Shown: in pieces, positions 2,685-62,120 of the stretch
Layout of the letters: every line of letters begins with the position of its first letter
Numbering within the stretch: the first letter of the stretch is position 1
Assembly: GCF_019175385.1 (NCBI RefSeq)
Contig: NC_083338.1
Location: 89,611,777 to 89,675,776, forward strand
DNA length: 64,000 nucleotides
Origin: Lycium barbarum
Taxonomy: Eukaryota; Streptophyta; Magnoliopsida; Solanales; Solanaceae
Reading direction: 5' to 3'
Program-made: the position numbers and the translations under genes
Notes under the pieces: generated by a model
Seen by the model: the letters and a program-made list of their open reading frames with translations, nothing else
What the model was told of the DNA's origin: nothing
Databases searched by the model: none

Positions 2685-2894
2685 TCAGTACATTTTCCGT
2701 ACTGACCCCCTCTTCTTTGGGGGCTGCGTTTCATGCCCGCAGGTACAGACTCAGGTTTTGGTGACCCACCGGCGTAGGATTTCCATTCTGCGGTTCGGAG
2801 TGCTCCCTTTGTTCCGGAGTCGACATTTTGGGTACATACTCTACCGATGTTCAGGTTTATGTTTATTCAGGGTACGGCGGGGCCCTGTCCCGCC
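2685..2894 (+). other. LTR hairpin cassette, N1 5' LTR
   Basis: Three hairpins abut. Stem 1 is TCAGTAC 2685-2691 with GTACTGA 2699-2705. Stem 2 is CCCCC 2706-2710 with GGGGG 2719-2723. Stem 3 is CTGCG 2724-2728 with CGCAG 2738-2742. A CTCC/GGAG hairpin follows at 2803-2819. Last comes GGCGGG/CCCGCC with loop GCCCTGT at 2876-2894. The pairings are read directly; an RNA role is inferred from conservation across LTR families. Confidence 0.7.
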
Positions 2895-3139
2895 ATATGA
2901 TTCGGTTGGTCTGTTTAGAGGTCTGTAGACATATATGTGGGCTGGTGCCTATTTCTGTACAGTTGCGTTATTATGATCCCACTCGTTATGGCAGCCTTGT
3001 CGGCTTTTGATATGATTTGAGGCAGCGTGGGACATTTGTGCTGTATACGCTATCTGTATGTGATTCAATTTGGATAAATGTGTTAGGGTGCCCAACTCGG
3101 GCACTAGTCACGGCCTACGGGGTTGGGTCGTGACAGAAG

Positions 3140-3153
3140 TGGTATCAGAGCAG
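3140..3153 (+). other. Primer-binding site, tRNA-iMet type
   Basis: TGGTATCAGAGCAG begins four bases after the LTR end. TGGTATCAGAGC matches the initiator methionine tRNA 3' end used by many plant retrotransposons. Confidence 0.93.
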
Positions 3154-3253
3154 TTCGTCCTCGGATTGTCTACAGACCGTGTCTAGTAGAGTCTTGTTTA
3201 TCGGTGTGTTGTGCACCATATCTCTAAACAGGAGGCTACAGGACATTTAGGAT
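3151..3253 (+). other. Conserved untranslated leader of N1
   Basis: About 100 nt aligns by eye with the leaders of A (41472-41577), E (19187-19295) and F (26310-26419), all on the minus strand. Shared words include AGAGTCTTGTTTAT and the AGGAGGCTAC to ACATTTAGGA region. Conservation in elements with and without genes suggests a cis signal such as RNA packaging. Confidence 0.7.
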
Positions 3254-4319
3254 GTTACCTTTCTTTCATATCTTAGATCGTGCGATAGAGCCAGCCATAA
3301 GAAATGAAATTCCTCTTACTAACCCTTAATTTCAGCTGGAGAACAGTATCGACGTAAGACAGTGACTGATGATATTGGAAGCTACACAGTACACAGGTAA
3401 GCAATGGTATGAAAGATGTATGCTGGGTAAGGTATCTTGAAGTACGATTGAAACATAAAGTTGAAAATTGAAAGGGAAAGTAAACAGGAAAGTGCCTCTG
3501 ATGCCGTTTGAGTTAGGCATGTGAGGTAAGTCTCGACATTTCATACTTTTATTTGAAATTGTTAGCCCTGTGTGGTTACGATACGATGTGATATGATGTG
3601 TATATACGTATGTGTGTTGGCCCTGTGAGGCATGGTTGGTATTTCCTGCGTGCAGGTTTTGGGATAGTAAGAAATACAGAGGAACCTCTGCCCAAATTTT
3701 TCTAGAAATATGAATAGGGAAAATGAGATATAAGTTCTTAGCATGTTTTGAAAGTCGATACCGATAGGGCAAATCTATTATGTTGGATTAAAGTCTAAGA
3801 GATACCCTCCATGTCATTCGTAAGAAGCATCATCCTTACATGGGAAATTTTATTTTGGGAAAGCATATATGATCAGCAAATTTCTGGAGATCATTTCAGG
3901 AGGGATTGGAGACCCAGGTGAATCTGAGTAACGGGGCGATAGAAGAGTTGAGTCAAAAAGAGAGAAACGACACGAGATAATATGCTTGAAGTGTTATAAG
4001 TGGGATTAAGGGAAATTGCGAAATGGTTTAAGTGAGATGGTCAGAACGAGCTAGTTACTAGAAGACAGTGAATTTAAAGAGAACGAGCAAGAAGAACTCG
4101 ACTTAAGCTTCAAGTATAGATGGATATGGTAAGTTGCAGTCGATTACGGAGGTAGTTAAATCGTGTCTACTATATTTGGAAGATCAATATTAACAGATGT
4201 CAGGTGGAGAATGGCATTAGGCTAAGTAAAGAAAGGCACAGCATGATAGATGAGTTCAAGTTACAAGTGATTCGTTATAAGATCACCAGAAGCGGTATAA
4301 TTATGTAGGACTAATTTGA

Positions 4320-4353
4320 CATTCGGGGACGAATGTTCCTAAGGGGGGGAGGA
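4320..4353 (+). other. Hairpin and polypurine tract of N1
   Basis: CATTCG/CGAATG (4320-4335) precedes the purine run AAGGGGGGGAGGA (4341-4353), which abuts the 3' LTR. The same layout recurs beside A, B and E. Confidence 0.9.
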
Positions 4354-5136: not shown

Positions 5137-5171
<35 letters not shown>

Positions 5172-6685
5172 CTTCTAGGCTAAGGAAGCCATTTTGATTA
5201 AAATCCGAGCTCCGAATCCCGAAGCTCATGAAGAGAAAAACGTTGTACGTTGCGTTGCCTTCAATTTGAGATAAATATTGGTCTTGGGGGATGAAATTTT
5301 CGTGGTGGAGCTTCTGATAAGGTATTTATAAAATTCCTTTTATGTTATTAAAGTGTTTATTTAGAGTTTTAACGAATTAGAACGGAGAAAACAGCATTAT
5401 AAACTCGTTTGTTGTTTTGTTGAAATTTATGGGTGAGGGGCTGTTTTAATTGAAATTGATGGACTGATTTGAATTAATATTTTGGTTGTTGTAATCATGG
5501 ATTATGTGAGGAGAGTGAACGACTTTAATGGTTAGAGTTGGAGTTAAATTGTTGTGGGTTGTTGTAAGGATTATAGAGATAATAATGTGGTTTAGTTGCA
5601 TATGAATAGATGATGTGGTGTCGTGTGGCTGCTGTTGTATTTCTCAGAAATTTGCTGAAAAGATTGCATGAAATAAGGTATAAGAAGTGCATATGGGTTG
5701 CTTGGTGTATTGCAAGTGTTCGTTAGAATTTCGGGCATCGTTATATTATAGTTGGGGGCTGTTTTGGTATGTTGTTGTTCCTGTTGAAATAAAAGAATTG
5801 AAGATATGGTTGTGTCCATATGTTATTGTTGGTATTTCTGTGTCAACAGGAGAGCAATTGGAAATTCGGATAGGCGAGTTTATAGGGGAAATGCTGCCCA
5901 AATTTTTGTAGACAAGTAATGAATTAAATATTTGAATGCTAAAAGTCATACTATTGACAATTGGTAAACATGACCATTTGTAGATTTTGAGCGAAACGAG
6001 AATTGAACTTGGACGAGCGTAAGGCGCAATCAAGGTATGTAAAGTCTTTCCCTTCATTCTTTGGCATGTTCTAGACATAATAGGCCCGGCCGCGAGCCTC
6101 AGATACGACCCTGTTTCTAGAAATCCGAGATTGAAATTGGCTCCATTTCATTCAATGAGATTGAATTGGTTTCTTAACCTTTCGTCGGCAAAATGACCTA
6201 TATGTATGCAAGTTTCACAAATGAAGTCGGAATGCCCTAAAAATCTCACGGATGACTCCATAAGACCTATGATCCATAATTTTCGTACGCCACCTCATTT
6301 GATTCGAGGTGGGCCCACTATTCTCGGATTTTTCTGATTTGTTCCGTTTGACATATTTTGAAGTGGAATTCAAAGGAAACTCTTGGCTACTTTTCTAACT
6401 ACTATACGACAGTTGTTTTGAAGTATTTCGTAAGTCCCACAATGTATTTGAAACATGAAAACTTATGACTAGTGCGTCAACTACTGTGAGATGGTCGTTT
6501 AATCATTTCATTGGGGTTATAACATGTTTGACTGTTGTTCCGGGGTTGAACTAACAGTTTGTTTTGATTATCCTGTTGGGTTGTGGTAAGAGATTTGCAT
6601 GCTTACGGTTATTTACGATTCCGCTCGTGCATTCTGTTATTACTTCTTTCGCCCAGTCCCGGGCCGGTTTTATTATTGTGTGCAC

Positions 6686-6834
6686 TGTGTGACGTTGACC
6701 GCTGGATTGTTGACCGCGGTGTGTGCGACATTGACCGCTGGATTCTCGACCGCGGTGCGTGCGACATTGACCGCTGGATTCTTGACCGCGGTATGCCGCA
6801 TTTGGGATGTTAACCGCTGGACTTTTGGCCGCGG
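6686..6834 (+). repeat. Minisatellite in N1 3' LTR, four units
   Basis: Same unit as in the 5' LTR, with the third unit absent. Each unit ends in a CCGCGG palindrome. Confidence 0.9.
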
Positions 6835-7220
6835 CATTTGTGTGTTTGATTTTCTATGTGTATGAGACGAAAATGTTTTTTTAAAAGAAAGCAAAGCAGT
6901 TTGGCATTTTGATTGCCGTATTTGTCTTCCGGGATCTGATTTATATGCTACCTGTATCTGTATATGCTTATGACGCTCCATGCATGATTCTGTCTGTTAC
7001 GCTTCTGTATGCCTGATCTGGATTATGACTCCGTCTGTTACACTTCCGGAAATATGATTCAGACCGTGATTCAGTCTGTTACACTTCGGTACCTCTAACT
7101 CTGATTACGATTATGTCAGCCATATTCTGTGCCCCGATCCGTATGGTGATTTTGTCCGCTATATCTCTGCACTTCTGGTTCGGACTATGATTATATTTGT
7201 TATATTTCCGCTTTACATAC

Positions 7221-7429
7221 TCAGTACATTTTCCGTATTGACCCCCTGTTCTTTGGGGGCTGCTTTCATGCCCGCAGGTACAGACTCAGGTTTTGGTGAC
7301 CCACCGGCGTAGGATTTCCATTCTGCGGTTCGGAGTGCTCCCTTTGTTCCGGAGCCGACATTTTGGGTACATACTCTACCGATGTTCAGGTTTATGTTTA
7401 TTCAGGGTACGGCGGGGCCCTGTCCCGCC
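7221..7429 (+). other. LTR hairpin cassette, N1 3' LTR
   Basis: Stem 1 is TCAGTAC/GTATTGA, with one G-U wobble against the 5' copy. Stem 2 is CCCCC/GGGGG. Stem 3 is shortened to CTGC/GCAG by one deleted G. The GGCGGG/CCCGCC hairpin is retained at about 7411-7429. Confidence 0.65.
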
Positions 7430-7670
7430 ATATGATTCGGTTGGTCTGTTTAGAGGTCTGTAGACATATATGTGGGTTGGTTCCTATTTCTGTACAGTTG
7501 CGTTATTATGATCCCACTCGTTATGGCAGCCTTGTCGGCTTTTGATATGATTTGAGGCAGCGTGGGACATTTGTGCCGTATGCGCTATCTGTATGTGATT
7601 CAATTTGGATAAGTGTGTTAGGGTGCCCAACTCGGGCACTAGTCACGGCCTACGGGGTTGGGTCGTGACA

Positions 7671-7963: not shown

Positions 7964-8158
7964 GACGGAACAAGACTCCGTCGTGCCCAAAATGTACATT
8001 TATACCAAAAGAGGGATCATAAGCACCTCCGAACAATGGAGTTCTCTCAATCGGCTGACAGCTACTAAGAATCCGGATCAAGCTCACCTCCTTGTCTACC
8101 TGTGGGCATGAACACAGCGTCCAAAGAAAAACGGACGTCAGTACGAATATTGTACTGA
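7964..8158 (-). other. LTR hairpin cassette, element C
   Basis: In sense order: TCAGTAC/GTACTGA (8138-8158), CGTCC/GGACG (8118-8137), CTGTG/CACAG (8100-8117), a CTCC/GGAG hairpin, then GACGGA/TCCGTC (7964-7982). Stems 2, 3 and 5 differ from N1 but still pair. Confidence 0.68.
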
Positions 8159-9618
8159 GTATGAGAGGCATAAACAATAAAGAAAGATAACAATAATATA
8201 ATGAGAATGTCAATATGAACATCTAGATCTGAATGACAATCATAAGAGAAGTGATGCATGTTGTCTTACTCATACTCATCATCATGTCATATATGCATAA
8301 CATGCAAGCTGCCCGTCCATATCGGAACGGTGTGATAATCAATAACATTAGCCAGCGTCCAGGCCTCCCGCGTCCGGGGTACCATCTCATGCCGCCCACT
8401 AATGGTGTCTGCCCATGCCAAAAGGGTAATGGTGTATCCGTATAGCTGCCCGCCTTAGCGGTGACTGCCCGGCCAACTAGGCACGGTGTAATATGCTCAT
8501 GACATGCTCATCATAAAATCCTTGTAATCATATGCTAATCATAGTATGCTTATCATAATACATGCATAAGGCTCAAGATCAACTATACTCTACCGGGGAG
8601 ACGTAAGGTCGTGATCTCCCGATTTCATTATGGAGCAATTATTGACATTCTGCCTCACCTTGAAGGAATTGGTGCATAAGGTAAGTGTAAGCAATAAATG
8701 ACATCTTTATCAATATGGAGTCATCATATCATATCTCTTATCTTATATAGACATGTAGGGGTATAGGCTTTTTGCTTCTCAGAATACATGAACTCATGAA
8801 GAGGAAAAGAACTGCTACTATAGGATTCATGCCATTAGAAAAAGGGGACTAGCCTCACATACCTTTGACGTTTAGTTAGCTATTCGTTCGCTTGATTCTC
8901 CTTTAATGACACGTCGCTACCTTCACGATAGAATTCGTATTGGCGTTAGTTAGACGACTTAAGGAAACACGTCACTACTTCTAGAGAAAATTAGGCAGCA
9001 CTTCCTTTATTTATACTACTTTTCCCATAGTCTATATCAATTCCCAATGCTCACATCAACATCCACAATATTACAATCAACAACCATCGTTTATATACAT
9101 TCACCACATCCCACCATTTTTCTCCAATTTTCCCACATTTATCCATATAACTCATTATTGTGTTTTCGCGCATTTAATACTTGTTTCATGATATAATCAT
9201 CATTTATAACTTATTCATAATCACAACACTTCGACATTCATGATTCAATTCCACTGTCATTCAACTATAGCACTATTCACTCAGTAATGGTCCATGTTCT
9301 ATGTCTTGCTACAATTCAAGCTTCGTAGTATTTCAATGCCTTAAACATCATGATAAAGTCATGAAACATACCTTAGATGATAGTTGAACAAGACTTGAGT
9401 TGAAATACTTCACTTAGACAAAACCCTAGTTCCACCATCTATGGAATTTCTTGACGTAAATGATCCTTTGATGTGTTCTTACACTAGGTTTTTGTGGATT
9501 GATGAAGTTGATCCTAAATTTTCATTTGAATTCTTGTTTTGGAAGAGTGTGGAATGTTCTAGAGATAGATTGGGTCGTGGAGTGAGAATGGGAAATAAAT
9601 AAATGAACTTGGATCATA

Positions 9619-19617: not shown

Positions 19618-19815
19618 AGCGGGACAAGACCCCGCTATGCCCATAACTATGTACACAAAAGAATAAGTACCCAAAAGCTATGGCTCCGAATGAAATGGAG
19701 CTCTGCTATGAAATCTCTGAGAAAGAAGCTATGGATCAAGCTTGTCTCCCTGTGCACCTGCGGGCATGATGCAGCGTCCACAAACAAAAGGACGTCAGTA
19801 CGAAGAATGTACTGA
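19618..19815 (-). other. LTR hairpin cassette, element E
   Basis: TCAGTAC/GTACTGA (19795-19815), CGTCC/GGACG (19775-19794), CTGC/GCAG (19758-19774), GCTCC/GGAGC near 19685-19703, and AGCGGG/CCCGCT with loop GTCTTGT (19618-19636). The fifth stem is another paired variant. Confidence 0.68.
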
Positions 19816-20105
19816 GTATGTAAAGCATGATCAACATCAATATAGAAGCATAATGTGCAACATAAGAAACAGCATGAGATAGGAGATAGTAATGTCATCG
19901 TCGTGGGCACTTACTTGCCTTTCATAAGATCTTACCATTTCTAATGCGTATTGGTGTACATACATCCATAATTGTATCCGTATCCATTCACGTATCCTTA
20001 TTCACATTCATATCGTATCTTATTCGTATTCATATCATATACATAATCATATCATACAAATAGCATTTACATAGCATACCCGACCATGCAGGATCGGTGT
20101 TTCAT

Positions 20106-20209: not shown

Positions 20210-21324
20210 ATCTGCAGAGGTGTGCGCACGTTACGTAATCGTATACATACTTATTTACATATCTTACCCGGCCTCATAAGCTCGGGGTTCCATAATAGTC
20301 ATGCATGGACACATATACATAATAGCTCATAAGCATCTTTACTATTTACATCGTTATTCATCATATTTATCTTTATAGGCTTACTCATCATACGAGGGAT
20401 TTAGTACAATCGTGGCGTATAAAGAATCAATGAGCTTACTAACTTGGGAGATCAAGTCATTTGAAGGACATCATAGACTCATAGAAGATTTAGATATTTG
20501 GCCAAAGAACCATGCCTTATGAAAGGAGGGTTAGCCTTACATACCTTTTCCGTGCAACTATTCTACACTTGCGTGTTCTCCTCCAATGCTAGTGTTTCTA
20601 CCTTCATTAAAGTCATACTATCATTAGAATCGATAGCTAGCATGTATAACCAAAACTAGAGATAATCGGACAGCATTTTATTTATTTATACAACCTCCTC
20701 CCTATCATATATCAACAACCAAATGTCAATAATAACATTCACAATATCCTTACGATAGCCTTTAATCAACTACATTATTCTTACTTCACCATTCACTCCC
20801 ATTAATCCATATTCATGGTCATATCGCATAGTTCCGTTCATTCATATTCAAGGTCTATTCCATGTTCTCAACGTCATTCATAACATGATTATATTCATAA
20901 CATATTAGGAATCATAACTCATTCCAAACATCTACTCAAAAGTGACACTATTGAACATTCCTGACCCATTTCTTACATTCTTTCGTAATCCAAGTGTTTC
21001 AACTTCCCAATACTTTAAACAACATGGAAATATCATAAAACTTACCTTAGATGGTGTAGGATTGAACCTTGGGCGCAAATACCTCACTTGAGCAAAACCG
21101 TAGTTTTTCCTTCACTTGAATTCCTTGCCTTTGATGAACTTTAATAGGTTTTCTTACTTTGATTCACTTGGTTTGATGATAATAACCTTTGATTTCCCTT
21201 GGATTCTTGTTCATGAAATATACGTAATGCCCTAGAGGCTTTATAGAGAAGTGGAGAAGTGTTGGAAATGAAATAATGAAATTGGGAACACATTTAAAGA
21301 CTTAGAACATTTCAGCCCCTCGGG

Positions 21325-21821: not shown

Positions 21822-23444
21822 CTTGGATTATGGAAGAAAACGGAAAATGGATTACAAAAATGAGATTAGTGGCAATTGTGAATAGTAGATTAATATGAAT
21901 CATGAATCTTGTTATGTTGAGATTGTAATCACGTTATGAATGATGTTAGGAGTATGAGAGGAACATTAGATTTGAATGAATGTAACGTTGTAGTATGATT
22001 ATGACTATGGATGAACTTGAGAAGAAATTGTAGGTATTGGATAATGATGAATTTGACTAAAGTCATTGATGATGATACTATGAATGTTATTATTGACGTT
22101 TGGGAGTTGAAATGTGATATGGGGAAAGTAGTAGAAACAAAAGAGATGCTGCTCAATTTTCTATAGCTTTAGTAAGAACACGCTTATATTGTTGATTATC
22201 TAATACAAGTATGAGCTCTCCTGAAGGTAGAAACGTGAATATCGAAGAAAAGCGTTCAAATGATAGAGTAGCTAGACGAAAAGGTATGTGAGGCTAGTCC
22301 TTTATTTCTATGGCATGAATCCTATGACATGATTTTTCCCTTCTTCTCCATGAATCTCCTACATTCCGAAAAAAACTAAGAGTCTATGTGTATGAATAAC
22401 CATATGAGATAAGAGATATAGTATAAGCCCAATAATGATGATGATGAGTTTAAGTCTAAAGATTCTAGAGTTCATGATATGGTGTTCCTATAAAGTTAAT
22501 GATGTCGTTTATTGTATACACTCACCTTATATACTATTTCCTTCAAGGTGAGGCAGAATACTTATAAATGCTTCATAATGGAATCGGGGGTTCACGACCT
22601 TATGTCACCCCAATAAAGTATAGCTATGTTTGAGTTATTATGCATGCATTATGATGAGTACATGTTGATGATATTACACAGCGCCTATATGGACGGGCAG
22701 ACACCGCTAAGGCGCGCAGCGTATACACAATGTCCAGATGGCATGGGCAGACACAACTAGTGGGCGGCATGAGATGGTACCCTGGACGCAGGCTAATGAT
22801 TATCACACAGAACCTATATGGTCGGGCAGCTTGTACATTTATGCATACATTATATGATGATGATTATGAGTAAACCAGCATGTGTTATTTCTTTTATAAG
22901 TGACAGTCAGATACAGTTGCTCCTTATTGATGCTTCCTTTATCTCATTGACGTATTTTCATTACTTATGCCTCTCATACTTAGTACAATGTTCGTACTAA
23001 CGTCCGTTTTCTTTAGACGCTGTGTTCATGCTCACAGGTAGATAGGGAGGTGATCTTGATCCAGACTCGTAGGAGTTAGTGGATGATTTGAGAGCACTCT
23101 ATTATTCCGAAGGTGCCTTGATTATTCTTTTGCGTACATATATATATTTTGGGCACGACAGGGTCCTGTCCCGTGCATATGTCTAGTACTCTAGTAGAGG
23201 CTCGTAGATAAGCAGTTGTGGGTTATATGGTCTCACGAGGCTGCTATTATGTATATATATTATTTTGATAGTCGAAAGGCTTATGTATATAAAAGTATTT
23301 ATGTTCTAAAATGAAAAATGATTTTCTTGTAATTTGACTATGAATTCGATGAAAGAACGCTTAATGAGTATGATGAGTAGTAGACGAGTGGTGCTCGGTG
23401 GTTAGCCCCGGGTACCCGTCACGGCCCCTAGTCGGGTCGTGACA
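21822..23444 (+). repeat. 3' LTR remnant of element D
   Basis: The 3' 1.6 kb of a plus-strand LTR ends GTCGGGTCGTGACA and is not followed by a primer site, so it is a 3' or solo LTR. It matches A and C LTR modules: AGGTATGT (22282-22289), the CTGCCC...GGTGT block (about 22683-22832) and the hairpin cassette (22980-23037). It begins exactly where E's LTR ends, so E inserted into it. It probably belongs to D. TGAGT at 23445 would be the right target duplication. Confidence 0.78.
22980..23037 (+). other. LTR hairpin cassette, element D
   Basis: Stem 1 is TTAGTAC/GTACTAA, a two-sided change from TCAGTAC/GTACTGA. Stem 2 is CGTCC/AGACG, with the closing pair lost. Stem 3 is CTGTG/CACAG. Confidence 0.68.
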
Positions 23445-26836: not shown

Positions 26837-26893
26837 CTGCGGGCATGAGCGCAGCGTCCACAAGAAAGGACGTCAGTACGAATAGTGTACTGA
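26837..26893 (-). other. LTR hairpin cassette, element F
   Basis: TCAGTAC/GTACTGA, CGTCC/GGACG and CTGCG/CGCAG abut. The fourth hairpin near 26763-26780 is weaker, and the fifth is not obvious. Confidence 0.65.
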
Positions 26894-27049
26894 GTATGTA
26901 AGGCTTAAATAACAACATAAACAAGAGATACGGAACATAACATGAGATAAGGATAACCTGTACATTTGATTGCCTCATAAGGCGAAAACCATGCATGCTT
27001 AGCTTTCAAAAGAAATCATTTCTCATATACATATATAACATAATAGTGC

Positions 27050-30909: not shown

Positions 30910-31095
30910 GACGGGACAGGACCCCGTCGTGCCCAAAATATATATACACAAAATCATAAGCAATGGCACCTCCAAAACAATGGAGTGCTCTCAAGTCTGC
31001 TGATAGCTTCTATGAATCTGGATCACCTCCCTGTCTAACTGTGGGCATGAACACAACATCCAAAGAAAAGGATGTCAGTACGCGCATTGTACTGA
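30910..31095 (-). other. LTR hairpin cassette, A 3' LTR
   Basis: TCAGTAC/GTACTGA, CATCC/GGATG (31057-31074), TTGTG/CACAG (sense strand, one G-U), CTCC/GGAG near 30967-30983 and GACGGG/CCCGTC (30910-30928). Stem 2 differs on both arms from the CGTCC/GGACG of the same element's 5' LTR. Both arms contain CpG, so paired decay is possible. Confidence 0.68.
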
Positions 31096-37910: not shown

Positions 37911-40900
37911 TGTCACGACCCAACTCCGTAGGCCGCGACTAGTGTCCGTGCTGGACACCCAAACGTACCCAATAACCCAAATTAGCAAACGATAGAATAT
38001 TTTCAAATATAAAAGTCACTTGGCGTTAGTAATGATCATAAATGAACCGACACAGTACATGGAAGCCGGTGAGGCTGTCACAGATCATATCATACCCCAA
38101 CATATACAGAACCCACACAAGTATATCTACAGACCTCTACAGAACATAACAAAATCATAAGACGGGACAGGGCCCCGTCATACCCCCGAATAGCATACAT
38201 ATATATAATAGCGGCGGACTATACCAACATATAGGCTCTGGACAAAAGAGCGCTCCCAACATAGCAGAATAGATGTCCTAGGCAGGCGGTCAGCAAATCT
38301 GTCTTCTGTACCTGCGCGGCATGAAAACGCAGCCCCCGACGAAAGGGGGTCAGTACGAAATATGTACTGAGTATGTAAAGCACAGAACGTAGTAAACAAA
38401 GTCATAATCAGAACAGAAGGTACAGAAAATGGACAGAATATCCAGATTAGCAAAATTTTGGTCATAAGGCATAAATAGTAATTGTTGAAAACATATGTCG
38501 TACCTGGTCCCAACACGGAACAAGATTTTAACCGGAACAGAACTTACAGAGAAGTGAGTGTGACATCCGAAGTACCAAATGCATATTTTCAAAACATGAG
38601 GAGTGTGTATAGAAACATATATCACATCAAATCCGGCCCCTGCCAAGGGGCTCAGCAAACAGAACGTGGCCACCCCCCGACGCTGGTGCCACCATACATA
38701 AGGAACAGAGTAGGGGATAACCCCGTCACATAACATATCATATCATATGGCCATATCAGATCATAGCATATCAGAATGTGTGTACATGGCACAGCATACT
38801 CCAAAACCCATGTACATATATACCTGCCCCCTCACATCGAGGCACGGCGAACAATGCAATGGAATACGCTTGACAACATATCCTGGCCCGGGCTCAGTGT
38901 GGGAAACATTGGGGCATCCACGAATGGAGTAGTGAGAGACTAAATGCAACAAAAATATCACAGATTTCCAGAGACTCAATGAGGCGTATCGAATGACAAA
39001 TCAAATCAATGAAGTCGGATAGAATCATAGTAGGTGTATGTCGTATGTCATAATGAGTTACGGAAGAATGATCCTTCTGGGATCATTTTCATATTCCAAA
39101 ATAGTTTACCAGACTCGAGGGAATCATTAAAACAATTTTCCTTAGTAGTTAGAAGGATAGTTAAAACATTTCATTTTATATTGTTCGAAAATAAGGCAAT
39201 AGTACAATAAGAGAGCAAAGCGGGAATAGTGGAACTAAATGCAATACAAAATGTCGTACCTTTACAGAGACTCAATATAGTGTCCCGAATAAGCATCATT
39301 AGTAGTTGGAAAAGTAGATAAGACATTTCCTTAAAAATTGCTTGAAATCAAGTTACAAAGGACCATAAGGGTAAAATCGGAAATAGCGGGCCCACCTCGG
39401 GACAACCAAAGCGGCGGGCTCAAATTACGTGTATTAAGCTTATGGGGTCACCTACAGAGGTCCTAGGGCATTCCATAACTTCCTAAGTGATTTGGAGAAA
39501 TTTTGCATAATTTTTCAATAAAGCATACTAAAAGGGTTCAATTCTATTGAACGAAAATGTGACAATTTCAGACGCGGATTCCGATGAGCAGAATATTCTC
39601 CGAGGCGTGAATCCGATCCTAGTACATCTAGGACATGCCAAAAGAAGAATCGGGGTAGCTTTACATACCTTTTACGCACTTTACGCCTTTCCAAGTTCAC
39701 TTCCCGTTTCGTCCAAAATCTGCAATTGGTCACATTTACCAAATGTTAACCATAAGGCTTTAGGCTTAAATCTCAAGTCAACACTTTTCTACAAAAATTT
39801 GGGCAACATCTCCCCTATACATATAGCATCCCCGAGAATTCAACTCGGCCAAAACAATCAACAACAACCCAACAACAACACCACCACCAACAACAATCAT
39901 TATGTAACACAATATAACACAACTAGTCCTCTTTCCGACATAATGCCATAACCTTCGTTTCATCCTCAAATTCCCAAACCAATCTCAATGGGTTCACATT
40001 CATCATTAATCAAGATCATCACAATATAATTTGGAAGCATTTCATATCATTTCTACAAAATATTCATAAGATATACATAATATACAAGCTTTCCACCAAA
40101 GTCATAATTCATCCAAAACTTCTAATCTTTGGCCTACACATGCATAACATGTTTCCATCTTCCAAATCCATCAATAATCATCATAATTTGTACCCTAGCA
40201 ACTTCATTTTCACAATGTCGTAAAATCGTACTAAAACGACATAAACTTCTACATTCCATTTCAATGCAAACTTATATCGTTTTACTTTCATATACCTTGC
40301 AAACATCACAACAACACTACTAACTTGTTAAACAAAATTGATTCATTCTCATCCCACTAAGGGCACCACACGGCTACATCACTATATTCCAACTTCTATC
40401 AAATTCATTCAACTTTCATTTCCAATATGCATTTCACCACAACCACAACTAGAATATAACATAAATTTCAACACATTATAGGCATATAATACACACATGC
40501 ACACGGCCACACATACATATCACATACCCACTTTGCAAACTTCCATGTTTTCATGAATTCTATTCATTTCCTTATACTACAACACAAACAAACCTTCATA
40601 ACATAATAATATGGAATGAATTCTTACCTTTTCTCTTTCTCTTCTTCTTGCCAACACAAGTACTTTCTTGCCTTAAAAATTATACCATCTTGAAGAGCAT
40701 CCTTGAGTTAGTAATATTGCTAGAAAATTATGATTTTTTTTAAAATCAAGAATGGACTTGGAAATTTTCTTTTTCTTTCCCCTTGAAGGGGTCGAAACCC
40801 CTCTTGATTTTTTTTTTGCTCTTACTCTCTTTTGTTTATGCTTCATGAATCTTCTAAGGGGTATGGATATATATGGCCTTTCTTATTTAATTGATCATAT

Positions 40901-41594: not shown

Positions 41595-43057
41595 TGTCAC
41601 GACCCGACAAGGGGGCCATGACGGGTACCCGGAGCTGACTACCGAGCACCACTCATACTGCTAGCCATCATCCTTATTCTCATGCTCATAATCATAGGAA
41701 AAGCCAATCTAACTTTGAAACATATTTACCTTTATATACATAAGCCCTTCGGCTATCAAAATAATACAGTGAGGAAAATCATAAGACCATAATACCGACA
41801 CATTTATATCTACGAGCCTCTACGGGAGTACTAGACATATGGACGGGATAGGACCCCGTCGTACCAAAAATATATATATACACAAAATCATAAGCAATGG
41901 CACCTCCGGAACAATGGAGTGCTCTCAAGTCTGCTGATACCTCCTATGAATCTGGATCACCTCCCTGTCTAACTATGGGAATGAAAACAGCGTCCAAAGA
42001 AAAGGACGTTAGTATGCGCATTGTATTGAGTATGTATGGCATAAAAAATAATGATACATCAATGAAATATAGGGATATCAAATGACGAACAACCCGTAAC
42101 TAACTGTCAATCATGATAGAAATAATGCATGCTGACTTACTTCATAAACATCATCACATCATGTATGCATATATGTATAAGCTGTCCGACCTTATAGGTA
42201 CGGTGTGACCATCATTAGCCTGCGTTCATGCCTCCCGCGTCCGGGGTAACCATCTCATGCCACCCACTAGTGGTGTCTGCCCATGCCATCTAGACATGGT
42301 GTATACGCTGCCCGCCTTAGCGGTATCTGCCCGACCATATGGGCACGGTGTAATATAATTATCATGTACATCTCATAGACTTATCAAAATCTTGTAATAC
42401 TCTTATCATAATGCATGCATAGGAACTCAAAGACAACAATACTTTCTCGGGGTGACATAAGGTCGTGAACCCCCGATCCCATTATGGAGCATTTATAAGC
42501 ATTCTACCTCCCCATGAAGGAATTAGCATATAAGTTGAGTGTATACAATAAACAACTTCAATGGATCATGGTTAAAATCATTAGCTTTAGGATCTTTAGA
42601 CTTAACTTATCATCATCACTATCATGCTCATAACATATGCCTTATCTTTATCCCATATGGCTATTCATGAACATAGACTCATAATTTCCGGAATGTAGGA
42701 AAGTCATGGAGAAGGAGGGAAAATCATGCCAAAAGATTCATGCCTTAGAAAGAAGGGAGTAGCCTCACATACCTTTTCCTTTAGCTATTCTATCGTTTGG
42801 TCGTTCTCCTTCAATGCTCACATTTCTACCTTCAAGAGAGTTCGTATCAACATTAACTAATCGATTATATGAACGTGCTTACTAAAGCTAGAGAAAATTG
42901 GGCAGCATTTCCTTTGATTATACAACTTTCCCCATATTACATATCAACTCCCAACCATCTATAATTAGATTCACAACATCATAAGCAACAATCTCCATAC
43001 ACCCACATTTCACAATTTCACTTCAATTCATCCATAATCATGGTCGTAGTACACCAG

Positions 43058-44197: not shown

Positions 44198-47100
44198 ATA
44201 AATGTCACGACCCAACTCCGTAGGCCGCGACTAGTGTCCGTGCTGGACAACCAGACGTACCCGATAACCCAAATTAGCAAAATGACAGAATATTTCAAAT
44301 ATAAAAGTCACTTGACGTTAGTAATTAGCATAAAAGAACCGACACAGTACAGATGAGGCTGTCACAGATCGTATCATACCCGAACATATACAGAACCCAC
44401 ACAAGTATATCTACAGACCTCTACAGATCATAACATAATCATAAGACGGGACAGGGCCCCGTCATACCCCTGAATAGCATACATATATATATAATAGCGG
44501 CAAATTGTACCAATATACAGGCTCTGAACAAAAGAGCGCTCCCAATATAGCAGAATAGATGTCCTAGGCAGGCGGTCAGCAAATCTGACTTCTGTACTTG
44601 CGCGGCATGAAAACGCAGCCCCCGAAGAAAGGGGGTCAGTACGAAATATGTACTGAGTATGTAAAGCACAGAACGTAGTAAACAAAGTCATAATCAGAAC
44701 AGAAGGTACAGAAAATGGACAGAATATCCAGATTAGCAAAATATTGATCATAAAGCATAAATAGTATTTGTTGAAAACATATGTCGTACCTGGTCCCAAT
44801 ACGGAACAAGATCATAACCGAAACAAGACTTACAGAGAAGTGAGTGTGACATCCGAAGTATCAAATGCATATTTTCAAAACATGAGGAGTGTGTTCAGAA
44901 ACATACAGCATATCATATCCGGCCCCTGTCAAGGGCTCGACAAACAGAACTTGGCCACCCCCCGACGCTGGTGCCACCATACATACGGAACAGAGTAGGG
45001 GGATAACCCCGTAACATAACATATCATATCAGATGGCCATATCAGATCATAGCATATCAGAATGTGTGTACATGGCACAGCATACTCCAAAACCCATGTA
45101 CATATATACCTGCCCCCTCACATCGAGGCACGGCGAACAATGCAGTGGAATACGCTTGACAACATATCCTGGCCCGGGCTCAGTATGGGAAACATTGAGG
45201 CATCCACGAATGGAGTAGTGAGAGACTAAATGCAATAAAAATAACGTAGATTTTCAGAGACTCAATGAGGCATATCGAATGACAAATCAAATCAACGAAG
45301 TCGGACGGAATCATAGCAAGTGTATGTCATATGTCATAATGAGTTACGGAAGAATAATCCTCCTGAAATCTTTTTCATATTCCAAAATAGCTTACCAAAC
45401 TCGAGGGAGTTAGCAAACAATTTTCCTTAGTAGTTGAAAGAATAGTTACGACGTTTCATTTTATATTGTTCGAAAATAAGGCAATAGTACAAATAGAAGC
45501 TAAGCGGGAATAGTGGGAGACTAAATGCAACCCAACATATCGTACCTTTACATAGACCCAATAAAGTATTTAAGATAAGTATCATTAGTAGTTGGAAAAG
45601 TAGTTAGGACGTTTCCTTGAAAATCGCTTGAAATCAAGTCACAAATTACCATAAGGGTAAAATCGAAAATAGTGGGCCCACCTAGGGACAAACAAAGCGG
45701 CGGGCTCAAATTACGTATATTAAGCTTATGGGGTCACCTACAGAGGACTTAGGGGTATTCCATAGCTTTCTAGGCAGTTTGGAGAAACTTGCATAATTTT
45801 TCAATAAAGCATGCTTAAGGGGTTCAATTCTATTGGACGAAAAAGGAGTATTTTCAAATGCGGATTCAGATGGGCAGAATGTCTTCCGAGGTGCAAATCC
45901 AATCCTAGTACACCTAGGACATGCCAAAAGAAGAATCGGGGTAGCTTTACATACCTTTTACGCACTTTACGCCTTTCCAAGTTCACTTCCCGTTCCGTCC
46001 AAAATCTGCAAAAGGTCACATTTACCAAATGTTAACCATAAGGCTTTAGGCTTAAATCTCAAGTCAACACTTTTCTACAGAAATTTGGGTAGCATTTCCC
46101 CTATACATAAAGCATCCCCGATAATTCAACTCGGCCAAAATAGTCAACAACAACCCAACAACAACACCAACCATAACAACAACTACGACAAAACATACAA
46201 TATGGCACAACTAACCTTCTTTCCGACATAATGTCATACCCTTCATTCAAACTTCATATTTTCAAATCAATACCAACATTCTCGTATTCATTACTAATTA
46301 AGATCATTACAACACAATTTAGAAGCATTTCATATCATTTCTACAAAATATTCATGAGACATACATAATATACAAACTTCCCGTCAAAATCATAATTCAT
46401 CCAAAGCTTCTAATCTTTGGCATACACATTCATGACATGTTTCCATATTTCAAGTTCATCAACAATCATCATAGTTTGCACCTTAACAACTCCATTCCCA
46501 TAATGTCATAAAATCATACTAAAACGACATAAACTTCTACATTCCATATCAATGCAAACTTACATCATTTCATCTTTACTTACATTGCAAGAATCACAAC
46601 AACACAACTAACATGTTAAGCAAAAGTGATTCATTCCCATTCCAATTTTAATACCACACGGCCAACATTCCATTCTTCCAACTTCCATCAAATTCATTCA
46701 ACTTTCATTCTCACTATGAATTCCATCCTACACATAACTAGAATACAACATAAATTTCAACTTATCAGATGTATACATTAATACACACACACGGCCACAC
46801 ATAGCTATGCACACCCACTTTGCAAACTTCCATATTTTCATGAATTCTACTCATTTCCATATACTACAACACAAACAAACCTTCATAACATAATAACTTG
46901 GGATAAATTCTTACCTTTTTCTCCAATCTTCTTCACTCAAACATGTTGCCATATTGAAGGAATAAATGCTCTTTCTCCCCAAACAATTGCACCAAGTTGT
47001 AGAGGATACTCAATTTAGTAGGAAAATCACAAGATACAAATTTTTGGGACAAGATTTTTGAGGGTCAATTTCTCCAAGCCATGGCCGTGACCCTCTCTTT

Positions 47101-48390: not shown

Positions 48391-48481
48391 GTATGCAAAG
48401 CATGAAGTACAGAAATCCGAATCATAACTGAAGTGATGAGTACAGAAAATGGATACAGAATTAGTATATCAAAACTTGTGC

Positions 48482-48525: not shown

Positions 48526-50944
48526 GCAAATAAAATCATGCATAGGGCTCAGGAACGTGGTCGCCACTCCGACGCTGGCGCCACAACACATCATACTCCA
48601 GAAGGTTTCAAATCTCCGTACAATCTCCGAACATATCATATCATCATGACATATCATAACATCAGAACATATCATATGCCATATCACATCATAACGCCGT
48701 ATATAAGCGGTACCCGACCCTATGGCGAGGTCTCGGGAACCGTGACAAATCATACTGCCGAATACAACATAGTGCACACGATCACAAAACCGGCCCGGGA
48801 TCCGGCGAACGATATCATAGTAGTAGGCACGAGCGGAGTAGTGCGGAAACCATATGCATATAAATAAATAAATAAATTTCTTTCAAACTCGATAGCCAAA
48901 TATTTTTACAGACATCTGAAGGCTCAAAAATAAGATTCGGGTCAATTGGAATTAGTATGAGAGAGTTACAAACTTTCGAAGTACGGAACCTTCTGAAAAT
49001 ATTTCATAAGTCATACTTAGAAATTCAAGTATCATTCATATTAAGAAGCTTTCAAATAGCATTATGGAGCAAATCAAACGGAGCCTTAGAATCATGTGCA
49101 CATATCCAAAATATATTTATATATATATCCAAAACTTTAGCCATATCAAATATTTTTCGAACAATATCCGGAAACGTATCGACTAGAACTTCAAACATCA
49201 CAAGTATGTATCAAACCATATGAGATAGTTTATGGAAATCAAAGACATAGGCCATCCTAGTGGCTCTAGGAGTAGAATTTTCTTTAGAAGCATACATATA
49301 TGTCATTCGCTCATTTCATAAAGGTCATGTCAAAAGGAAGAAAGGTAAGTTTTACATACCTCAATCGCCCGCTAATCAATTCCTGAATCAAGTCTCGGGC
49401 TCTCCAATATCTACAATAATATTATCAATTACCAAATATTAGCTACAAGTACTTAGAAATCCAATTCTAATTAGCACTTGTCTACAGAAATTTCGGCAGC
49501 ATCTCCCCTGTAAATTCAACATCCCCGAGAATTTAACTCGGCCAAAATCATCAACAACCATACCAATAATACCAATAACAACAATAATCAATTCAAAACG
49601 CATTCTAACATTAGTAACCTTCTTTTCAACATAATTCATCAACATTAAATTTAACTACTAATTCAAGGTCATTCAAATACAATTCAAAAGCATCTCACAC
49701 ATTTCTACAAAATATCCAACAATCCCACTAACACCATATTCCATTCAAAATCTCCACAAATGCGACAAGGTCACAACGTCGCATTTTCTTCTCCCAATTT
49801 CATCAACAACAACAACAATTTGCACCTTAACAACTCCATTCCCATAATTACATAAAACTATAATAAAATCACATTATTTCCTACAACAACTTAACAACCA
49901 ATTTTTCATGCCAACTTGAACTATTATTCTTCCATTTACGTCACAAGGCCACAACAACACAATTAACATAATAAATAAAATTTGTTCATCCTTCTCCATC
50001 AACAACACTACACGGCCACACACACACATACACACAACACACAAATTTCATACTTTTCATTCATTTCCACATACTACAACATATATATAAGTCTTCCATA
50101 ACATAAAAAGGATAGAATTCTTACCTTTTTTCAATTTTTCCACTTGCCAAAAAAAGTACTTTCTTGCCTCAAAAATCATATCACGTTGAAGGGGGTCTTG
50201 AGCTTAGTAGGAATACTAGAAAATTCAGATTTTTGGATCAAAGGTTGATGGGAATTTTTTTTTTCTTTTTCTACTATGGCCGAATTTCTCTCTCTCTCGA
50301 GTTTTTTTTTTTTTTTTTGTGTTTCTTGAATCTTCCAAGTGAAGATGACTCCTCTTATTTATTTGTGGACTTAAATTAAATGGACACATGGGCTTGGCCC
50401 TTTTTTTTCCTTGCCATGGCCGGCCACAACACAAATTTTTGGGCCTTTTGTTTTCTTTTTTTTTTCATTTATTTTGAGCCCAATTAGTTATGGGTCTTAT
50501 TTTGTAATTCCCGAAACTAATTTCCAAAATTCTCAATTTTGCCCTTGGCCTTCCTCCATATTTCCACATCAGCATTTCATGAACAACACATATATATTAA
50601 ATAAAATAAAAATATGGCCTTATTTCTTCCAAGTCAAAATTATTTCGAATTTTCCGAATATGCAAAAATATGGGATATAACATTATTAACGCTTACTTAA
50701 CACCTCATTCACAATCTAAGAGACATTACAACTCTTCTCCAAGACATCATTAAGTCATCACTAACTCGTCACTCGTACATCCTTCCCAATACATAGCGTA
50801 TACCTTGCCTTTCTTGGCAAACTTTCTTCTCTTACCTCGAATGTCTTTGAAATCTACTTCCTACTTATCGAAACATCGTATACTTCGTGCCCTTCATTGG
50901 TATATCCACTGTACGTCAACGAGAAATTTTTTCGAGGTGTAACA

Positions 50945-53080: not shown

Positions 53081-54488
53081 ATGGGTTTCCACGTGGTCAC
53101 CAAGTGAGCTGCACTTAGGACACTAACGTGTCAAACCAAGAGGAAACATATATGTACAAAATTGAGTGATGAATTATTCCTTACTTAATTTCATTCTGGC
53201 AAAAAAAAAAAAAGAGCATGGCCATGGCTGCTGCTCACGGCCAGCCATGGACAAGAAATGATGTTGTTTTTTTTTGCTTTGATTTAATTCCAAGATGATT
53301 TACAAGTTCAAGGAGGTGATAGCAACATTTGATATTGAATTGAGGAAGAAGAAATTGTGAAATTGGAGCAATTAAGTGCAGAAATTCCTCTGAGAAAATT
53401 AAGGTAAGATTTTCTTGTTTTATTGTATAATTATACTAATGGTGTTGTAATGGTGGATTAAAATTGGATTGGATGAAATTTGAATTAAGAAAATGCATGA
53501 AATCGTCGTTATATAGAATTGTGGGTTGAAATGGATTCAGAAAGGTTGTTGGGTTGTTAGAATTGTTGTGGGCTGAATTGTAAGAATTTTGTATGTATGT
53601 CTCTATTGCTGTTATTTCTGTGATAACAGGAGAGTAATTAGAAATTCGGGTTAGGCTTATATATAGGGGAAATGCTGCCCGATTTCCGTTAAGTCCTTAA
53701 CTAATGAAAAAACCCTAATCGAGAAAGTATGAGTTAAAGAATAAGTTCTATAAGCGATGAGCTGCGGAGTTACGAACTAGAAAGTATATTACTAATGATA
53801 GCGTTACTTGTATATTAAATAGGCTAAAGGGGCGACGAAGCGAACGAGATTACGAATAACCTTCAGCAGGTACATAAAGTTGTCCCTTCTTTCTTTTGGC
53901 ATGTCTTAGATTTAAGTGACGAATGATATGAGCTTTGGGGTAATTCCATTCATAAGTTTTGAGTGTGATTCATGATTCCTATTCACTTCTTGATGTTAGA
54001 ACTCTTAAATGATTGAGCTTCTCTTTCAAGTTTTCTATCGTTGGATAGTAGTCGATATATAAGTTCCTATTCTTAGGAACTCTATGATAACTAATGTCCA
54101 GACTTTTATAAGATGTTTCATACTATATTGACAAGTGACTATGATTCCTAAGGCTCTTTGATAGACTTTATGATGACATCCGAGGGCTGTTTGATATGTT
54201 TCCGAGTGGCATTCGAAAGGTATTTGATATGACTATTGTCTTGATTTTCAAATGATAGTTTGTGCTGATTATTCCATTGAGTCTTTGATATACCCAGATA
54301 CGTATATATGATTCCAGAAGTTCTATTCTGATATAATCCACAATGACATCCGAAAGGCATTTGGTATGACTATTGTCCTGATTTTTAAATGACAGTTCAT
54401 TTTGATTATTCTATCGAGTCTCAGATGTGTTTTAACTCGCATATGGTTTCTCACAACTCTGCTCGTGCGTGCCTCAATATGTCTTTCA

Positions 54489-54736: not shown

Positions 54737-54874
54737 TATATATGATATATGATATTGATATGCATGATTTTCATTTCATAAGGCAAGTGTATTGATGTTT
54801 TAAAAGTCATACTTGTTTCTAGTAATCTCTATTTCATTTATGATTCTTTTTACTGTATTTCATGCTTTATATAC

Positions 54875-55088
54875 TCAGTACATATTCCGTACTGACCCCT
54901 CTTTCTTAGGGGGGCTGCGTTTCATGCCCGCAGGTACAGATAGTCGGTTTGGTGACCCTTCAGCATAGGACTTCTACTCAGCTGTCTTGGAGAGCTTCGT
55001 TGTTCCGGAGTCTAGACTTTTGGTTCAGATCTTATGATGTATATGTATATGTTTATCCAGGGGTACGGCGGGGACCTGTCCCATCATA
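54875..55088 (+). other. LTR hairpin cassette, B
   Basis: TCAGTAC/GTACTGA (54875-54895), CCCC/GGGG, CTGCG/CGCAG (54915-54933). A weaker GGCGGG/CCCATC fifth hairpin lies at about 55067-55086. Confidence 0.65.
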
Positions 55089-55912: not shown

Positions 55913-56029
55913 GGATGCGATCATACCATCACTAACGCACCGGATCCCATCAGAACTCCAAAGTTAAGCGTGCTTGGGCGAGAGTAATACTAGGATGGGT
56001 GCCCCCCTGGGATGTGTAAAAAAAGTCCT
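55913..56029 (+). rRNA. 5S rRNA-derived segment inside element B
   Basis: It begins GGATGCGATCATACCA and continues through CACTAACGCACCGGATCCC, AAGTTAAGCGTGCTTGGGCG and TACTAGGATGGGTG, the backbone of plant 5S rRNA including the A-box and C-box of the internal promoter. About 100 nt match from the gene's first base, with few substitutions by recall (CATCAC for CAGCAC, CCAAAG for CCGAAG, AATACT for AGTACT). After CCTGGGA about 10 bp are inserted before AAGTCC, and the 3' end is lost. It is in the sense orientation of B. I infer a captured pseudogene; 5S transcription is unlikely without a proper 3' end. Confidence 0.9.
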
Positions 56030-56227
56030 ATAAATTTAGATGTAAGAGGAAAATGAGAAGCTAGAGCAGCCTAAGGGAGATTGGAGTATGTGGAGTGGTT
56101 GGACACCTTTAGAGGTCGCGTAGGACAAGGCGGACTAGACCACTGAAGAGAAAGAAGGTGCATCACAGCTCTAGAATTAGGGTGAGTTTGAATAGTGTTT
56201 GGAAATATTTTGTAAGCGAGATGGTAG

Positions 56228-56232: not shown

Positions 56233-56301
<69 letters not shown>
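56233..56301. repeat. (TA)n microsatellite in B interior
   Basis: About 34 uninterrupted TA units. Confidence 0.95.
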
Positions 56302-56307
<6 letters not shown>

Positions 56308-59300: not shown

Positions 59301-59378
59301 GGAAAAATAATTGTTCTAATGAATCAAAGATGGTGTCGTAGGATGGCAATACTGCAACATTCGAGGACGAATGTTTTT

Positions 59379-59391
59379 AAGGGGGGAAGGA
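59379..59391 (+). other. Polypurine tract of B
   Basis: AAGGGGGGAAGGA abuts TGTTACACCCC of the 3' LTR, with the conserved hairpin just upstream. Confidence 0.9.
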
Positions 59392-59556
59392 TGTTACACC
59401 CCGCATCTTCGAAGAGCACTTATCAAATTTGAAACATCAGTAATTTGAGTTAGGGTTAAGTAAAATCACTTTGGAATATAAGGAGCAAGCATTATTAAGT
59501 ATATTTAATAAGTGAAGGATGTATATAAGGTATGCCGGAAGGTTTTATAAGGAAAT
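59392..59556 (+). repeat. 3' LTR of B, first piece
   Basis: Matches 51172-51336. It is interrupted by S4 and resumes at 62116-62121. Confidence 0.9.
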
Positions 59557-62120
59557 TTTCACAACCAAAACTGATGGGCCATAACAAGTGCCCGACCACT
59601 ACTGGCCAAGCACTCCTATCCTTGCATTTACTGTGCACTGACTATCCTGGGCCCATAGACAATCTGTAACTGAGTTGTACTGTCTCCCGAACAATCAACA
59701 TAAGAGACACTGCACCGGGAACTCATGGCCAACACATACATATAAACATAAACACTGAGAGTAATAACATGAGCCGACTTGGCCGCCACATATATACTAT
59801 ACAACAAAATAAATGCTGACGCGGCTGCATAACATCATGTATCACTGTCTACAGACCTCTATGGAGTACAAACTGTAGAAATGACAGGACATGGCCCTGC
59901 CGTACCCATATATGTACATAACCGAATAGCATACCAAAAGGGATGTAGCTCCGGATCAATGGAGCGTACTGATTGCTACTGAGGGGAGGTCCTACTGCGA
60001 TAGAACGTCCGACTGGCTACCTAATCCTGTGGGCATGAACGCCGCGTCCACAGGAAGGGACGTCAGTACGAGTAATGTACCGAGTATGTAAGGTATGAAT
60101 AATAACATAGTAAGGGATGTAAAGTATGAATAATAACAGAATGGAAATATAAAGCGTATCGTAAGACAAAAGAGTAACCTGTACATATGAGTTCCTCTTA
60201 GGGCGGATGCCATGCATGCTTAGCTTTCTTTTGAAAAAATATTTCTTTTTCATGTATGGATAAAATAGTACATATCATGTTGCCGAGGCGTCGGCTCCGA
60301 TCCATTTAACCACATATGTCCCGCGTCCGGGATGGTATCATGTCATATAATACCAACTGATCAGGTGGCCATGCGTCTATAGCGCCTCTCCCTTTTTCCT
60401 ATATTCCCCGTATACATATACATATACATATATCATGTTCATATATCATATAAACAACATGCAGGAGAGCCCAAAGAAAACTATGTCTCTATCAGAGTGA
60501 CATAAGGTCGGTAACCTCCGATTACATTATGGAACAATCATGATTGCCATATCTCACCATGAAGGAACAATTATTATAAGGTGGACTATCAATGAAAAAT
60601 AACCTCAAGAGAAAACATAGAATAAGGTCATAAATCTCGTAAGGCGTCAATTCATATACTACTTTGAAGTCTTCAGAAAATAAAGTCATTATCAAGGAAT
60701 AAAATTGAGGATCAAGAAATTGCTCAATATTCTCATATTTATATTGAATCCACAACTTGAGACTTTCAAACATGAAACCATTCTCATCATAATCATCATA
60801 GACATATTCTCAACTTTGACATCATCGTTGTCATTACAAAAACATGTCCGTCATAAAAGCTTACCAAATCCTAAACCTTTATTTTGGGAAAAATACAGAC
60901 ATTTTGGAAAACATTTACGGGTTATCAGGAAGGGAATCTTGCCTTGGAATCATAGAATTTTAACTTTTGATAACAAGGAAGATATGGAAACATTTATGAA
61001 ATCATAACATAGGAATCATGCCTTTGAAAGAAAGGGACGAGCCTTAATATACCTTTCGGTCGCCTTAGTCGTTCAACGTTTATCCTTCCAAGCTCGTAAA
61101 TCTACATATAAACCATTCATACTATTATTAGGCTCAATGTCATATGCTTATCTTAAGCCTTCAATTTAATTCCGTTTAGAATCTGCCGAAATTCGGGCAG
61201 CACCTCCCCTGTTTATATGGCTAGCCCGAAATCACAATCCAACAACCAACAACAACAACAAAAATACCAACATCAATAACATCATTTCCAACACCAATAT
61301 GTATCATAAAACAGCACACACGCTGTTTTCCAACTTCCAAAACTAACCAACTTACTACACAATTATTTAACGACTTTATCTCTGTAAATAAGCCTTAAAT
61401 AATACCAAAAGAGAAAGATTCATACCTTTTTTCTTGTAAAGACAACTATATCTTCAATATCCACCTTGATTCCACCGCAAAACCTTACTAGAATCACATC
61501 TATGCATTTATTTGGGCTTCGATTAATACTCCGTCACTTGAAAATTGCTTACTTTTTGTTTCCCTCTCTCTCTCTCTCTTCAATTTCTGGAAATTTCTAT
61601 CAAAATCTGATGAAAAAAGGGGGTTATTACCCTTTATATAGGGGTCAAATTCGGGTCGGGTCACTGTAGCATTTTCACTGTAGCAGGTAGGTACTTAGCA
61701 GTACTGTAGCATGCGTTTCTGCTCTGTCAGCTAAACTTGTAACGTCCATAATTCTCTACTCCGATGTCCTATTGATGAGAAGTTTGTTGCGTTGGAAACT
61801 AGACTCGACGAGCTTAATTTTTGGATTTTGTTTCACTTCAAAACACTTCATATGCAAAGAGATATTCGTCCCCCAATTTGGACCAAACTTTTCACACAAA
61901 ACATTACCCATCCTTTCTCCAAAGTCGTACTACTCCACTTCTTCCACTCATTTCCATATAAAACCTTCCGGTATACCTTATATACATCCTTTACTCAATA
62001 AATATATTCAATAGCGCTTGCTCCTTCTATTCCAAAGTGGTTTTTCTTAACCATAACTCAACGTACTTATGTTTCAAATTCGATAAGTGCTTCTTCGAAG
62101 ATACGGGGTGTAACACAAAT
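59552..62120 (-). mobile_element. Solo LTR S4, same family, inverted
   Basis: The LTR 59557-62115 (2,559 bp) lies between GAAAT (59552-59556) and CAAAT (62116-62120), a target duplication with one change. On the minus strand it starts TGTTACACCCCGTATCTTCG like B itself. Its 3' end has decayed (TTTCACAACC for TGTCACGACC). It gives the full length of the X-type LTR and carries the hairpin cassette at 60027-60083. Confidence 0.92.
60027..60083 (-). other. LTR hairpin cassette, S4
   Basis: TCAGTAC with GTACCGA (one mismatch) and CGTCC/GGACG. The third stem is disrupted. A GCTCC/GGAGC hairpin is near 59949-59969 and GGCAGG/CCTGTC near 59883-59902, the latter another paired variant of stem 5. Confidence 0.6.

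Follow-up and report, generated by a model that had tools for sequence, protein, structure and literature searches.

Base pairing between the two ends of an intron is described for the yeast RPS17B (RP51B) intron, in which a segment near the 5' splice site pairs with one upstream of the branch site (PMC2536676), and the report on the HIV-1 5' leader assigns residues of the splice donor to long-range pairs of the fold that is competent for packaging (PMC5192399). Long terminal repeat (LTR) elements of plants are portrayed in a December 2025 review as generally intronless apart from notable exceptions in Ogre and EVADE, spliced BARE1 also being mentioned (PMC12786077); a sunflower survey reports two spliced Ty1/copia elements (PMC7730604), a 2013 paper on BARE presents the balance between genome and mRNA as a major question, and according to a 2005 paper no intron upstream of gag was known to its authors. 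We found nothing closer on LTR or leader introns in the open-access literature. Here, we describe an RNA cassette of three abutting hairpins that recurs in the LTRs of a 64-kb stretch of Lycium barbarum DNA (NC_083338.1, positions 89,611,777 to 89,675,776; the whole stretch is called the window below).

The cassette is probably the 3' end of a U2-type leader intron of ~0.7-1.4 kb inside the LTR, whose donor and branch site would both be held in helices. As in RPS17B, the region of the donor would pair with that of the branch site; unlike in RPS17B as described, the helix covers the donor itself, abuts the branch-site hairpin and sits in the transposon LTRs of many families. The likeness to the HIV-1 leader, for which homology is not claimed, lies in a retroelement leader with a paired donor and a fold linked to the fate of genomic RNA, whereas in the LTRs the leader, which precedes gag, contains the acceptor too, and the donor's partner stands beside the branch site. 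In influenza segments 7 and 8, the branch site, pyrimidine tract and acceptor of the 3' splice sites lie in RNA structure; these belong to an RNA virus, unlike the LTR cassette, share with it a structured 3' splice site, and have no donor pairing known to us. Ogre, EVADE and BARE are, as the review presents them, plant LTR elements with spliced and unspliced RNA, the splicing of EVADE and BARE serving gag expression, whereas the putative intron here is non-coding and lies inside the LTR (PMC12786077). The cassette would thus be a case of structure-controlled retroelement splicing at a location without an earlier report in the open-access literature searched.

Cassette copies and signals of a probable intron end

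The window is made of nested Ty3/gypsy LTR elements. In element B, on the minus strand from 19134 down to 14320, Pfam matches to gag, aspartic protease, reverse transcriptase, RNase H and integrase follow in this order (the Pfam cut-off is missed by the integrase core and by one RNase H piece). The primer site TGGTATCAGAGC, which we take to be of the tRNA-iMet type, stands right after the LTR 3' ends at 3140, 7687, 19307 and 26431; LTRs, primer site and domain order are together those of Ty3/gypsy. These four LTRs extend ~390-450 nt beyond the cassette end.

A covariance model built from 49 cassette copies, the 13 window copies included, matched the window exactly 13 times (E 3.8e-23 to 7.5e-14), every match sharing its donor's strand. 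The initial annotation had reported thirteen sense cassettes and given positions for eight, and a cassette lies at all eight. The copies are listed below, each with its putative donor and with a', an 11-nt complement of the donor.

2685..2742, plus strand, cassette N1a: stems 1 to 3; branch site TACTGAC; CAG acceptor with its last base at 2742
2674..2684, plus strand, a' of N1a: GCTTTACATAC
1455..1465, plus strand, donor block of N1a: AAG/GTATGTAAAGT, the putative intron being 1455-2742
7221..7277, plus strand, cassette N1b: a' 7210-7220; donor 6035-6045; branch site mutated to TATTGAC
8100..8158, minus strand, cassette C: a' 8159-8169; donor 8852-8862
19758..19815, minus strand, cassette B: a' 19816-19826; donor 20534-20544
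22980..23037, plus strand, cassette D: a' 22969-22979; donor 22284-22294; TACTAAC with compensating TTAGTAC; extra AG in stem 2
26837..26893, minus strand, cassette E: a' 26894-26904; donor 27674-27684 with an extra T at +7
31039..31095, minus strand, cassette A1: a' 31096-31106; donor 31823-31833; CATCC/GGATG
38312..38370, minus strand, cassette S1: a' 38371-38381 (11/11 Watson-Crick with the donor); donor 39658-39668
41973..42029, minus strand, cassette A2: a' 42030-42040; donor 42762-42772; stems 1 and 3 broken
44598..44656, minus strand, cassette S2: a' 44657-44667; donor 45944-45954; acceptor mutated to CGCAA
48334..48390, minus strand, cassette S3: a' 48391-48401; donor 49349-49359
54875..54933, plus strand, cassette F: a' 54864-54874; donor 53870-53880 (GTACATAAAGT); extra AG in stem 2
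60027..60083, minus strand, cassette S4: a' 60084-60094; donor 61042-61052 with an extra T at +7; stem 3 broken

A probable fourteenth cassette has its first base at the end of the window (63980-64000). At E up to 0.05 the model gave 56 matches in 294 kb, 43 of them in 230 kb outside the window, a sample of 23 regions of the same genome picked by coordinate that is not fully random, since some regions adjoin earlier matches or the window. The density there is ~one cassette per 5 kb, so that this would be, if spliced, a very common intron of this genome. Scans of viral contigs revealed no relatives, and, in line with the earlier statement that no named motif matches, no Rfam family matched the cassette at gathering scores, the hammerhead of retrozymes included. 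Clustering of the intron interiors gave 10 clusters at 50% mutual coverage, 15 at 70%, and 3 or 4 at 10-30% with sensitive settings; the LTR families are therefore diverged rather than unrelated.

For the comparisons below, 105 raw anchors were reduced to 74 by dropping 31 with 4 mismatches, and to 68 by removing three by hand (an antisense palindrome, a coding-like place and a second entry for the L015 place) and three duplicates. These 68 rows comprise 50 found by coordinate (13 in the window and 37 in the regions) and 18 from an earlier genome match list; two of the 50 have less than 600 nt upstream, which leaves 48 testable for a donor. Six covariance-model matches fall outside the 50 (L026:9916, L035:7103, L036:9510, L038:7280, L039:494 and L042:344). 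Among them, the cassette at L036:9510-9595 has a stem 2 G run grown to more than 20 G, and L038:7280 is a weak, divergent match for which a donor was looked for and none found.

The 3' arm of stem 1 carries the candidate branch site, TACTGAC or TACTAAC, within GTACTGAC or GTACTAAC, both of which contain TACTRAC; in 12 of the 13 window LTRs, the one perfect TACTRAC within ~1060 nt lies inside the cassette. From the branch A to the acceptor, 68% of the bases are pyrimidines, with a pyrimidine-rich stretch in the loop of stem 2. The first AG lies 34-45 nt past the branch A in 45 of the 50 coordinate copies, a distance seen at 9.0% of the 4552 A[CT] positions in the same introns (29% have at least 34 nt). 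In 37 of the 44 copies with the AG at 33-39 nt it reads CAG, usually CAG/G, and ends the 3' arm of stem 3. The base after CAG is more variable than CAG itself, which argues against a 5' splice site at this place; a 5' splice site at CAGGTA was considered and rejected, the following bases differing between families.

The donor AAG/GTATGTRARGC (AAG/GTATGTRARGCT) lies upstream in the same LTR and is followed by a pyrimidine tract and then GGCATG. It was found in 41 of the 48 testable copies, 630-1377 nt upstream of the cassette, and is preceded by AAG, CAG or GAG in 39 of the 41; the conservation of the donor columns is inflated, because donors were chosen by likeness to the consensus AAGGTATGTAAGG. 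By match to U1, it ranks first among 79-106 GT sites in ten of the 13 window LTRs (four tied) and second in the other three. The base composition switches from A/G-rich to T-rich at the donor, T reaches ~0.5 some 75-125 nt ahead of the acceptor, and the first 25 bases past CAG are richer in G and A. A GT donor with a U1 match, a branch site, an AG-free stretch and an AG acceptor, the marks of a U2-type intron, are thus all present in the sequence. The roles first proposed for the cassette (R-region structure, dimerisation, packaging, translation control and 3' end formation) miss this strongest signal, formed by the branch site, the AG-free stretch, CAG/G, the donor and a'; the same fold may nevertheless have a part in packaging or dimerisation. 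Group II introns start with GUGYG and contain catalytic domains; a group II or self-splicing intron was considered and rejected, the start here being GTATGT and the sole Rfam match in the window being 5S-like.

We looked for precise loss of the putative intron and found none among 89 local exon-3 starts (some places counted twice), of which three rows (two places) lack the cassette for other reasons. The donor is missing from 6 of 77 exon-2 ends through mutation or insertion, and none of these is joined to exon 3. At L038:7829 (minus strand), an exon-3-like start has no cassette upstream and is joined to unrelated-looking sequence.

A folded leader RNA serving packaging, dimerisation or reverse transcription, with no splicing and with coincidental splice-like motifs, would fit the conserved fold, the leader location, the palindromic CATG in loop 3 and the lack of intronless copies at the 89 places. 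It leaves unexplained why an exonic AAG is conserved beyond the helix, why TACTRAC occurs a single time and is followed by a zone free of AG, why the base next to CAG varies more than CAG does, and why the composition switches at the donor; we regard it as unlikely.

A second donor-like block (AAGGTAAGTTTTATG or AAGGTATGTTTCATG) lies ~500 nt upstream of the main donor at window 9374, 21048 and 32343 (minus strand) and at other donors too, and a GGAAATGCTGCCCAAATTTT-like block sits between it and the main donor. Together they possibly mark a first leader intron downstream of a TATA box.

Folding and covariation

In ViennaRNA folds, ten of the 13 window copies form three abutting hairpins, some with one pair fewer, which bears out this part of the initial annotation for most copies; A2 (42029) retains stem 2 only, S4 (60083) is without stem 3, and S3 (48390) re-pairs. 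Shuffle z-scores for the folding of the window copies range from -1.55 to -4.67. The paired changes reported earlier are present (TTAGTAC/GTACTAA in D, CATCC/GGATG in A1, CCCCC/GGGGG and CTGTG/CACAG), as are the breaks of stem 3 in S4 and in one A LTR, namely A2, where stem 1 is broken too.

Among 48 distinct rows, 95.3% of the cells are paired vs 90.1% with shuffled partners, the covariation score is 0.223 vs 0.128 +/- 0.008 for shuffles and at most 0.082 for slid frames, and 59 cells are doubly changed vs 22.1. These three of five measures are above every shuffle, a test that related rows may pass even without structure. With a tree model whose tree was built on flanking LTR sequence, mutual information singles out five pairs: pairs 2 and 3 of stem 2, pair 4 of stem 3, and +7 and +9 of the donor helix. 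Pair 2 of stem 1 is borderline (0.045), and the fraction paired is significant for stem 2 pair 2 only. When all 561 column pairs are tested against one another, four of the 11 structure pairs are among the top 15 (hypergeometric 1e-4).

Pair 2 of stem 2 shows a G-C/C-G swap with 22 doubly changed cells of 48, which deamination (CpG decay) cannot make, and the two covarying stem 2 pairs are not CpG sites. Pair 4 of stem 3 (C-G to T-A) is a CpG on both sides and could be decay. The caution that CpG decay might mimic part of the covariation thus holds for stem 3 pair 4 and fails for stem 2 pair 2, and CpG decay as the sole source of covariation is rejected. The same evidence bears on an account in which selection acts on linear splice signals only, the stems being inherited coincidences and the covariation a product of CpG decay. 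It draws on the CpG sites in stem 3, on the scarcity of variation in stem 1, on clade effects that inflate covariation and on the two measures that do not exceed shuffles. The swap in stem 2, the non-CpG changes that the donor helix shows at +7 and +9, and the conservation of a' and of the 5' arm of stem 1, which no splice signal known to us needs, make it improbable.

Stem 1 is almost invariant and in most copies a perfect inverted repeat, as would also suit a DNA-level palindrome in the LTR, such as a protein site or a cruciform. We disfavour this as very improbable in view of three different inverted repeats, variable loop lengths, a partner ~1 kb off and an orientation fixed relative to the donor. 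The data support a real, widespread, structured element and, as first proposed, selection on RNA folding. The stems show some covariation, and neither of the two stem 2 pairs concerned is a CpG site, though the signal comes from few deep events.

The predicted donor-complement helix and a candidate RNA switch

The 11-nt a' directly adjoins stem 1; in most copies it reads GCYTTACATAC, the reverse complement of the donor GTATGTAARGC. Ranked as complements of the donor, the 828-1575 sites per intron have a' in first place in 35 of 41 introns as read. Bulging out an extra T at +7, present at 6 loci, raises this to 40 of 41, and each of eight decoy 11-mers scores 0 of 41. The types of donor and complement match: AAAGC occurs with GCTTT, AAGGC with GCCTT or GCTTT (G-U), and GAGGC with GCCTC or GCCTT; in cassette F, with donor GTACATAAAGT, the G to A change at +5 is answered by C to T in a', and +4 is mismatched. 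In total, donor and a' form 392 Watson-Crick pairs vs 370 +/- 4.5 with shuffled partners (maximum 384 of 2000). The donor/a' duplex has a computed energy between -12 and -16 kcal/mol in 31 of 41 introns and is stronger than the U1 duplex in 38 of 41, the bulge being omitted for the 6 loci and the U1 end being unmodified. The order is donor, ~0.6-1.4 kb, a', branch-site hairpin, pyrimidine hairpin and acceptor hairpin, with no spacers from a' onwards.

A second complementarity (b/b') links GGCATG(AA), ~28-31 nt past the donors, with loop 3, (TT)CATGCC. In 23 of 38 introns no site ranks above loop 3 as a complement, b/b' shows no covariation in the tree model, and in some copies a second TTCATGC upstream of a' competes for GGCATG. 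Pairing of GGCATG with the CATGCC of loop 3, as a pseudoknot or an alternative fold, is possible.

Splice signals, complementarity, conservation and some covariation, all read from sequence, make the intron reading strong at that level, and from them we infer splicing. The intron would be confined to the LTR, within the untranslated leader that precedes the primer binding site, and the pairing of the donor with a' over ~11 nt would place donor, branch site and acceptor in adjoining helices. The spliceosome would remove the intron, and the donor/a' helix may compete with U1 and leave a share of the RNA unspliced, which would serve as the genome and be copied; opening of the helix would release spliced mRNA. 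The element would need unspliced genome RNA, since an LTR made by reverse transcription from spliced RNA would have lost the intron. We tentatively propose, as plausible rather than probable, that many plant Ty3/gypsy families share an LTR-encoded RNA switch: a leader intron upstream of gag would have its donor locked by a', itself joined to the triple hairpin of branch site and acceptor, and one fold would set unspliced genome against spliced mRNA, with a logic like that of HIV. If true, plant LTR elements would possess a structural device for dividing a transcript between the roles of genome and mRNA.

The main rival accepts the intron and assigns the helix a helper role, in which it aids splicing by bringing the intron ends together, as in yeast RPS17B; it predicts the opposite effect of breaking the helix. 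Such a helix would place the donor and the branch region, 0.6-1.4 kb apart, side by side, and the yeast intron is a described precedent (PMC2536676). A helix that covers the donor from +1, with a computed strength above that of the U1 duplex in 38 of 41 introns, speaks against a helper, which we consider somewhat unlikely.

Several observations weigh against a structured, spliced leader intron with its donor held in a helix. A recognisable donor is lacking in 7 of the 48 testable copies, 5 of the 50 copies have an earlier AG, and folds of the whole intron give the donor helix a probability above 0.5 in only 15 of 41. The covariation signal is limited and carried by few deep events: two of the five measures are not above shuffles (4 double-change pairs vs 3.3 and 19 further pair types vs 18.6), 11 of the top 15 of the 561 column pairs are non-structure pairs, with the +9 pair ranking 15th, and in the tree model +7 and +9 have mutual information P values of 0.0025 and <0.0025 but fraction-paired P values of 0.43 and 0.21. 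The lack of intron loss would follow if only unspliced RNA is copied, or equally if nothing is spliced. Moreover, in 12 of the 13 window LTRs, the ATG density per kb is 31 for exon 3, compared with 45 for the intron and 21 for the final 150 nt of exon 2, so that even a spliced leader would not be a clean scanning leader; with an exon 3 that is not ATG-poor, translation after splicing would still need explanation.

Other features of the window

N1 (window 3141-4353) looks non-autonomous, with ~1.2 kb between two LTR copies that are 97% identical over 3.1 kb. Repeated units resembling GACCGCTGGATTCTTGACCGCGGT lie at window 2110-2300 within the N1 LTR and are themselves capable of pairing. A 5S rRNA-like stretch (window 55916-56031, plus strand; Rfam RF00001, 58.1 bits) is located ~500 nt beyond the end of the F LTR.

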